64,000 bases of DNA from Sipunculus nudus (lineage: Eukaryota; Annelida; Sipuncula; Golfingiida; Sipunculidae): positions 2,585,001-2,649,000 of the forward strand of contig CM049320.1 in assembly GCA_026874595.1 (NCBI GenBank), in the 5' to 3' direction. Numbering within the stretch: position 1 is the first letter of the stretch; each line of letters opens with the position of its first letter. A program made the translations under genes and the position numbers. Shown here piece after piece: positions 7,447-9,950 of the stretch. Below the pieces are notes generated by a model. It worked only from the letters and a program-made list of their open reading frames with translations. It was not told the DNA's origin and ran no database searches.

Positions 7447-8477
7447 CATAGAATTACCAGTTTGTAATCCATTATGTACCAAACGAGATATTCTATAATA
7501 TGCAGACAGGATTGATTGATTTTTAATAAGCCGATTTAATCATTATCCATTCATTAACGTGACACGTGTGTAACCGTCAGACTTACAGATGAATGGTCTT
7601 TCAATTAATTCTATTACATACCCATTTACCTTTTGAAAGATAAGAGAAGCATGGTATGGCATTTACGTAATAGGGGAGGACATCTTAAGACGACTAGGTT
7701 GTACTTGGTGACAGGCTCTGGAGAAATAATTCACGCGATGGTCACTCCGTTGTTATGTAAATCACGCAGGGCGTGGGGATATATTCCCCTGTGTATAGTT
7801 CTCAAACGTGAGACCGTGGGACATCTTGAAATACAGCGGAGTAAAGTCATAAAAACCTCCATGTCATTCAAATGGTCATTTATGGCCTATAATGACGAAC
7901 GATTGGATCAGAGCGACATTTTATGTTAATTACAGGGTAATACACACAGTCGCACAGCGGGTGCTTTTCAAACCGGTCTTACGCTTTAAATGTCGTTTGT
8001 GGACATGCATGCTTTCGCGAGATGATGTGGGCGTTTAGCTACCGTCTCAATAAGAGTATGCCAAGGTTTAATAGAATCATACAGCTTTCGCCGTGAGCGC
8101 TATATGCCCGGCTTAATGGCTTTTTAACCTTCTCGAATACGTAAACAGTTTACTGCTAAGCTAATGCCAGGGTGCCTTGTTCACCCCACCCCAAGTAATT
8201 GAACATTCAATCGCTCAACTAAAAGGGCGCGGAGTCACCTTTTAATGCATTGACATCCAAGGAATACCACGGACCACAGTTGATGTTCCCACATCTGCTT
8301 ATGGGAATCCAGCAATCATCAATCAACATACGTTTTTACATATTCAATTTGGAACACCTCCGTGGAATTATATATATATTTGTATATAGAAGGTAGTGTT
8401 ACCCTCCGATGTAAAGTGCTCTATGGCCTACAGACTAGGCCAGAGCGGTATAACTCTGAAGAAAAACAACACTTTTA

Positions 8478-8525
8478 ATTCACAACAGTCTGTTTCACGG
8501 GATGCGACCCGATCATCAGGTGAAT
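8478..8525 (-). ncRNA. hammerhead ribozyme-like motif, minus-strand copy
   Basis: This is the mirror copy of the motif at 8,556-8,603, reading leftward from 8,525. It has the same core (CTGATGA, then GAAA), the same stem I complement ATTCAC/GTGAAT and the same short stem III. Because the two copies lie in inverted orientation, any transcript through both would pair the arms with each other and probably mask both ribozyme folds. Confidence 0.55.
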
Positions 8526-8555
8526 GTGGTTAGAATGAAGCTTCATTCTTACCAC

Positions 8556-8603
8556 ATTCACCTGATGATCGGGTCGCATCCCGTGAAACAGACTGTTGTG
8601 AAT
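8556..8603 (+). ncRNA. type I hammerhead ribozyme-like motif
   Basis: The parts fall in hammerhead order. Stem I 5' strand is ATTCAC (8,556-8,561). The core CTGATGA is at 8,562-8,568. Stem II is CGGG/CCCG (8,570-8,573 with 8,580-8,583) around a 6-nt loop. The GAAA core is at 8,585-8,588, and its last A is the first base of stem III. Stem III pairs 8,588-8,591 with 8,593-8,596. The predicted cleavage follows U8597 (GUU). The stem I 3' strand GTGAAT (8,598-8,603) pairs fully with 8,556-8,561. A very short stem III with a tiny loop is typical of type I hammerheads of Penelope-like elements and metazoan retrozymes, which act best as dimers. One defect is a T-T pair (8,569/8,584) at the base of stem II where G-C is usual, so activity is uncertain. 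Confidence 0.6.
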
Positions 8604-8634
8604 TAAAAGTGTTGTTTTTTTTCAGAGTTATATT

Positions 8635-8636
<2 letters not shown>

Positions 8637-8685
<49 letters not shown>
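8637..8685. repeat. (TA)n microsatellite beside the palindrome
   Basis: About 24 TA units begin a few bases after the right arm of the palindrome. Confidence 0.95.
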
Positions 8686-8687
<2 letters not shown>

Positions 8688-8819
8688 ATATATATTTATA
8701 TATATGGCTATATGTTACCAATGCCACTCCCCTAAATATAATAAACAGAACAGATTATCAGCACATGAACAATAAACAACTTAACAATATCAAATCATCG
8801 TCTACATAGTATATAAGCA

Positions 8820-9159: not shown

Positions 9160-9588
9160 GAGATATTCATTACCTGAACATTTCACCCTTAGAAATGTAT
9201 ACCAATACCAGGTTTTTAGTTATAAATCACAGGGATCCGTTATATTACCTGAACATATTCACTTCGGAACTGCTTGTAATTTGAGAGTCAAATAAATATT
9301 TCATATATAATGTGGTTGGCCTTTTGTTCGCGCGGGTTTCAAATTGGTGGTATTCATGAAAGGGCAGTTACCACAAAAATAAAATCTTTGTGAACAAGAC
9401 GCCTCGTCTACGGAGGTGAAAACACTGAAAAAGTTAAAATCGCGCAACTGTTAATCCGGCGAATATGGAGCCAAACACAGCATGATAAGAGTGTATGTGT
9501 AATTAATCCGAACATTTTCATATTTTTTTTTCAGCTATTCGGATTAAAAAGTTTTACTGTATATGATATTAATAAGAACTTTCCTCAC

Positions 9589-9821
9589 CTTGATTAAGTA
9601 CATTTCCGAATATAGACCTAGTATCCACTGTACTACAGTTCCAGCGTCTGTTTACGAACTGGTACTGACACTCCGTGATTGACAGACGGGCTCCCTCCTT
9701 CACGCTGGGAATCAGGTCCACATTACGCCGACATATTTTTTTCTGTCTACCGACCAACCCCGGAATTTTTTCACAGTGGTTCTCGTGTGTCACTGCATTT
9801 ATAGATGACATCGCCATTGAG
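9589..9821 (-). CDS. Wnt4: Wnt4 exon 2 (residues 26-104)
   Basis: This is the second coding exon of the Wnt4 ligand. It starts after a TTTTTTTCCAG acceptor with one C that completes the CTC leucine begun in exon 1. It ends CAA G before a GTGAGG donor, carrying one base forward (phase 1). Its 233 nt encode the start of the Wnt domain: NHCEKIPGLVGRQKKICRRN (residues 40-59), VKEGARLSITECQYQF (66-81) and NRRWNCST (83-90), which is the Wnt hallmark with an N-glycosylation sequon NCS. IFGNVLNQG follows and joins exon 3. Cysteines at 42, 56, 77 and 88 are in the expected places. All three junction phases agree (2, 1, 0), which supports the model strongly. No defect is seen. Confidence 0.97.
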
Positions 9822-9950
9822 CTGGAAAAAAACATATATTTAAACATAATATATATAATAACGTAATGTAACATTACATAACAGAACATTAATTAAAATC
9901 TCACATAAGATAAACTCATGCACATTTTTTATCTATATAAATCTCTCTTT

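Follow-up and report, generated by a model that had tools for sequence, protein, structure and literature searches.

Three described systems bear on the locus reported here, which lies in a 64,000-nucleotide stretch of the Sipunculus nudus genome (the window). The Penelope elements of Adineta vaga, as portrayed in the portion of PMC3846280 cited in this work, share with it pseudo-LTRs (pLTRs), a head-to-head inverted pLTR, palindromic inverted junctions, one inverted pLTR that may bear a tail, target duplications and simple AT-rich targets. In the named cases of that portion, the target duplications measure 8–10 bp, and the tail is given as 31. PAc, a Poseidon-type Penelope-like element (PLE) of Anolis carolinensis, likewise has a hammerhead near the pLTR/ORF junction, an AT-rich target and tandem copies; two internal reverse transcription (RT) start sites bound its tail, and both strands are cleaved and extended in vitro (PMC11167929). 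For PLEs in general, completion of the insertion involves additional steps that have yet to be validated (PMC11167929). Finally, the metazoan non-LTR retrozymes also carry a type I hammerhead motif within an animal repeat, according to the excerpt cited (PMC7229834). With a probability of roughly four in five, we interpret the palindrome in the window as a tiny truncated PLE insertion in which two leaders are fused 5′ to 5′, one of them with a 60-bp tail, within a 14-bp target duplication.

Structure of the palindrome

The insertion spans approximately positions 8389–8628 and is thus wider than the palindrome first noted. Its parts follow in the order target duplication, tail, inverted arm, direct arm and target duplication:

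8375–8388, no strand: left target-site duplication, TATATTTGTATATA; an identical 14-mer lies at 8629–8642
8389–8448, minus strand (sense orientation): 60-bp ‘tail’ of the putative PLE; matches ref 227–286, the tail of L143 and L216
8449–8540, minus strand: inverted arm, read as the end of the PLE leader/pLTR from ref 135 to the body end (inverted-repeat alignment, genome matches)
8478–8525, minus strand: hammerhead-type motif of the inverted arm (descriptor; letters identical to the plus copy)
8541–8632, plus strand: direct arm, the same leader segment in sense; its last bases, 8629–8632, double as target duplication
8556–8603, plus strand: hammerhead-type motif of the direct arm, with predicted cleavage at 8597/8598 (descriptor; genome pattern matches)
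8629–8642, no strand: right target-site duplication, identical to the left 14-mer and opening into a (TA)n tract that runs to 8705

As the first-pass annotation had stated, positions 8449–8632 form a spacer-less inverted repeat of two 92-bp arms (0 nt between them), which are 98% complementary and differ by two mismatches, at arm positions 13 and 83. The TA-rich target described in the same annotation is also present, in the form of the tract adjoining the right duplication. Folded as RNA, the palindrome gives a hairpin of -161 kcal/mol (z = -29.7 against shuffles), and an inverted-repeat scan of window positions 1–29241 reported no other. Rfam microRNA matches in the palindrome were set aside, as they fall below gathering scores and are expected of any long hairpin.

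Perfect palindromes are a known type of assembly artefact, and a fold-back read could in principle have produced this one. However, the symmetry is lost sharply at each arm end and the flanks are unlike each other; a target duplication is present, and similar pairs occur at many other sites. We regard an artefact as a negligible prospect.

The palindrome is flanked by a pair of minus-strand Wnt exons (191–607 and 9569–9892; Pfam wnt, E = 1.8e-34 and 1.7e-17), and therefore probably lies inside a Wnt intron. The right half of the window (29242–64000) is filled by a 35-kb tandem array of about 518 copies of a 67-bp unit with 91% matches.

Genome copies and a probable Penelope-like source element

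Copies were sought in the window’s own assembly of 1.43 Gb. One arm has at least 48 matches in this genome, and a pattern made of the core plus stem II of the hammerhead-type motif matches 1931 times (1018 + 913), with 0 matches for the reversed-pattern control. A single pattern scan found 149 short head-to-head pairs, again with a control of 0; this number is a minimum and favours short arms, because the pattern restricts the gap to 12–42. The genome-wide copies with the same core that the first-pass annotation had suggested looking for are therefore abundant.

The motif forms part of the leader of a tandemly arranged retroelement of 2.9 kb. At locus L216 the tandem units are 2924 bp long and an intact 713-aa open frame is present three times, with the tail placed after the body end and before the ORF; repeats also occur in L217 and L218. 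At L143, the arm ends inverted repeats of 566–568 bp that enclose a coding stretch. The 713-aa frame contains, in this order, FDIVDFYPSI, MGSFDGAEVCE, YRDDGL and IVYKATV..YIG, which we take to be motifs of a PLE reverse transcriptase and its GIY-YIG endonuclease. Queried with the frame, neither Pfam nor PDB returned a family or chain supporting an RT or endonuclease, so that the name ‘PLE’ rests on these motifs and on architecture.

The architecture is PLE-like in several respects (PMC11167929 and the cited portion of PMC3846280): tandem units and tandem or partial-tandem pseudo-LTRs, inverted pLTR ends of which one carries a tail (seen in L143 and in 49 of the 50 unique pairs), and AT-rich targets with a duplication, which is 14 bp for the window copy. 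From its sequence, we read the source element as a PLE. The link to Penelope-like elements proposed at the outset thus gains support, with the arm residing in the leader of a tandem retroelement that has a long frame, and the alternative assignment to a metazoan retrozyme falls away, as the tandem unit is 2924 bp long and coding. At L216:1–7055, full-length PLE units are arranged as a large head-to-head palindrome whose ~3.5-kb arms are 99.8% identical, and L219:237–533 consists of tail, unit 1–115, unit 2773–2862 and an inverted tail, which suggests a read-through RNA and a template jump.

Rules across head-to-head pairs

A scan of the window and 86 loci yielded 53 head-to-head pairs, or 50 after three duplicates were dropped; the filter missed six of the 48 loci taken from the 149-pair scan (L176, L183, L187, L193, L194 and L197). 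In 52 of the 53 aligned pairs (49 of 50 unique ones) the tail is found at exactly one end, the remaining pair having none. If the tail were chosen independently and with even odds at each end, about half of the pairs would be expected to be mixed. Boundaries were testable in 36 pairs, with a target duplication of 14 bp in four and of 13 bp in two; 21 are TA-only and uninformative, and nine have no target duplication.

The 5′ ends of the arms are clustered. Among the 52 tail-bearing pairs, 29 tail arms and 23 other arms start at ref 141, and a further 8 and 11, respectively, at ref 143. Ref 141 lies 17 nt before the core, and an RNA starting there would have its predicted cleavage site after nt 53. 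The native sequence at the arm start is TTC-ATTC, which in our estimation resembles an initiator. The arms in the window begin at ref 135, 6 nt before this inferred mRNA start. We also examined 20 further sites on contig C1, sampled along the 1931-match list after removal of previously examined sites and of two longer pairs (at ~3.78 and 26.47 Mb); shorter copies are missed in this sample because the motif was required. In 11 of these sites the 5′ end falls at unit 2774–2790, four of the 11 starting at ATTCTAACC (one of these with three extra bases), and many of the 20 are single arms without a tail.

These regularities bear on two other origins of the palindrome. The first is a short palindromic unit, either MITE-like or a hairpin retroelement, that is mobile in its own right and descends from one or a few master palindromes, as might be imagined from the 149 short pairs and from the 38 copies that share one junction form. 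The junctions, however, take many different forms, and the commonest, with 38 copies, is found in either orientation with respect to the tail, which disfavours a single amplified palindrome. Single-arm copies moreover end in the same way, long-armed and full-length copies have the same layout, and a tail at one end is unfit for a terminal-inverted-repeat transposon. We consider such a unit very unlikely; a MITE or DNA transposon proper was rejected on the one-ended tail and the variable junctions. The new small hairpin element envisaged in the first-pass annotation is likewise replaced, as an autonomous entity, by a truncated product of a longer element.

The second origin starts from the same PLE but involves a single cDNA, which would snap back at its 3′ end and copy itself. 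Self-priming of this kind has been inferred from such palindromes in rotifer Penelopes (PMC3846280, in the part cited). Several features here would suit it. The junction at C1:100350248 carries GTTAG-AATGAAG-CTAAC, the native hairpin sequence, and the window junction is centred on AGCT, which is also found in native sequence. The two arms of one locus are, in addition, unusually alike, differing by 1.73 compared to 3.71 in shuffled pairs (0 of 20000 shuffles; 37 loci). A self-copied arm should nevertheless carry a tail or stop at a random end. In 49 of the 50 unique pairs, one arm instead bears the tail and its partner stops at, or close to, the body end, and many junctions have extra bases or unequal arm starts. 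We judge self-priming unlikely, and retain the joining of two separately primed leader cDNAs as the preferred reading.

The hammerhead-type motif

Each arm had been proposed to hold a hammerhead ribozyme-like motif. In the direct arm (plus strand), stem I pairs ATTCAC (8556–8561) with GTGAAT (8598–8603) over 6 bp, stem II pairs CGGG (8570–8573) with CCCG (8580–8583) over 4 bp, and stem III pairs ACA (8588–8590) with TGT (8594–8596) over 3 bp. The core elements CTGATGA (8562–8568) and GAAA (8585–8588) are in place, and the triplet is GUU. The inverted arm carries the mirror image on the minus strand. The conserved core CUGANGA/GAAA and the three stems hence occur in order, except that stem II opens with a U·U mismatch (8569/8584) in place of a pair. 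CTGATGA-N16-GAAAC is kept in 91 of 100 arms of head-to-head pairs, and 90 of 91 matched arms have U·U at the base of stem II. A descriptor of the motif geometry, built post hoc, matches only the two arms within the window. On both strands of 20 Mb of Markov sequence, its loosest form matches once and the stricter forms (stem I of 5 or 6 bp, stem II of 4 bp) not at all, so that a match by chance is rare.

Covariance models give a different picture. Rfam assigned no family to the whole window at gathering score; at E ≤ 10, no hammerhead family was returned for positions 8400–8700, for a single arm or for the leader of a full-length copy. As controls, 20 loci were drawn from the 84 (of 121) on viral contigs that satisfy a hammerhead descriptor. 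At gathering score, Rfam placed a hammerhead family in three of these 20 geometry-picked loci, twice at the picked site, and at E ≤ 10 it found the canonical motifs of both L045 (28.4 bits) and L012 (23.2 bits), two loci missed at gathering. Because canonical controls do score at E ≤ 10, the silence on our motif means that it truly fits the Rfam models poorly and is atypical at best. What stands of the original proposal is the layout and the intact core; a regular stem II and a match to Rfam are missing, and the covariance-model search that had been recommended turned out negative. Covariation was unusable, as the rows had been picked by a core-fixing pattern and are nearly uniform. A scan of the viral contigs for the motif itself returned one contig, L001, which by eye has G and C at positions 10.1/11.1. 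One of the viral contigs among the hammerhead controls gave a match to the Twister-P5 ribozyme (L099:1199–1253).

The resemblance could accordingly be a coincidence or the outcome of decay, leaving a family motif without a ribozyme role. The missing Rfam match and the near-universal U·U fit this explanation, as does folding of the isolated motif, which favours a different structure: its best fold, only about -10, is not that of a hammerhead. Against it, besides the rarity of chance matches to the descriptor, U10.1–U11.1 occurs in natural hammerheads and is described as the best tolerated mismatch in the section of PMC3088659 cited here. PLE hammerheads are furthermore atypical minimal variants, judging from the excerpts cited (PMC7229834, PMC6155905), and sit near the pLTR/ORF junction (PMC11167929). 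Coincidence or decay appears rather unlikely to us; the family motif may be a hammerhead variant by analogy with these examples, and we put its identity as a ribozyme at about two in three.

In the full-length element, the leader motif may be able to cleave, perhaps with help from a protein as in PAc. The hammerhead-type motif would belong to that full-length RNA and is probably a silent passenger in the palindrome. Cleavage of RNA from the window locus is unlikely, because the antisense arm is transcribed first on either strand and the hairpin should win.

Two variations within the family were observed. The two commonest 51-nt forms of the motif (24 and 23 of 91 arms) differ in stem III only, ACAGACTGT versus ACAGTCTGT; these are mutual reverse complements, and an uninterrupted stem III could arise in mixed dimers. 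In a subfamily (L165, L168, L188, L194 and others), the predicted cleavage triplet reads GUA instead of GUU, and ACAACATTCAC or a similar sequence lies upstream of it.

A model for the insertion

The sequences of these loci show a pair of 3′ ends that face outward, a single tail, clustered 5′ ends and, in the clear cases, a target duplication. The clustering of the arm 5′ ends and the one-tail rule suggest that both target strands prime reverse transcription, which runs to the 5′ end of the mRNA. The element’s protein would cut both strands of an AT-rich target, as extrapolated from the Anolis PLE in vitro (PMC11167929). Each cut end would then prime reverse transcription internally on the element mRNA; the one-tail rule suggests that the body end is used by one of them and the tail end by its partner. 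As the clustering of 5′ ends suggests, each cDNA would extend to the start of the mRNA, some 17 nt ahead of the hammerhead core, or stop close to it, and joining of the two cDNA ends would yield the head-to-head palindrome. Protein action, strand use and joining are what we infer in this scheme.

Some observations count against the model. Nine of 36 pairs lack a target duplication. Many of the 20 further sites are single arms, so two-ended priming is not seen in every insertion. The window arms start at ref 135 and not at ref 141, and the low divergence between arms would also fit self-priming. The top and bottom strands of PAc were not seen to differ in their RT start site, and a strict one-tail rule would not be predicted from this (PMC11167929).

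A broader possibility, which we hold tentatively and at somewhat less than even odds, is that PLE integration is two-ended, with both target strands priming on a capped mRNA 5′ leader, the tail and body start sites serving one strand each, before the cDNAs are joined head to head. Such palindromes would preserve the start of the mRNA and perhaps also a G templated by the cap. Genome-wide, the base before the inferred +1 A is the native C in 1230 cases, G in 234, T in 120 and A in 65. Thirty-eight of the G cases belong to one palindrome class and can be explained by the partner arm, which leaves 196. At the examined loci, the palindrome arms whose base the partner does not account for have G in 14, A in 7 and C in 1, some of which appear by eye to be mutations of the partner arm; single arms have G in 4 and T in 5. 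An excess of G beside AT-rich targets is what cap copying would be expected to leave, but with mixed local cases we regard the signal as no more than suggestive.

As a probable truncated PLE insertion, the palindrome is ordinary in kind and unusually informative in number, and is neither a new hairpin element nor a retrozyme. A head-to-head pair of hammerhead-like motifs need not mean a new element, and the many sister copies hint at how PLEs enter DNA from both sides. With over a hundred short products whose ends are readable, this genome would allow direct testing of two-ended priming, of the two RT starts and of the mRNA 5′ end. Among the titles listed by our literature searches, none concerned leader-only PLE palindromes.

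Comparison with known systems

Retrozymes are small direct tandem repeats of 150–450 bp in the part of PMC7229834 cited, whereas the tandem found here is 2.9 kb and coding, and its short forms are inverted or single arms. The start codon of PAc is located at stem II and its RT start sites fall within the ORF; in the present element, the long frame has its first ATG after motif and tail. PAc shows no strand difference in RT start, in contrast to the single tail per pair observed here, and its cleavage needed protein; cleavage of our candidate motif is a prediction from sequence.

An inverted, fused pair had been thought unusual, but head-to-head inverted pLTRs with palindromic junctions are already documented for Penelope in the cited portion of PMC3846280, so that the arrangement is ordinary for the class. 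Compared to Adineta vaga, the target duplication is 14 bp in clear cases and the tail 60 bp rather than 31; the insertion can shrink to two leader ends of ~90 bp plus a tail, and over a hundred such short pairs are found.
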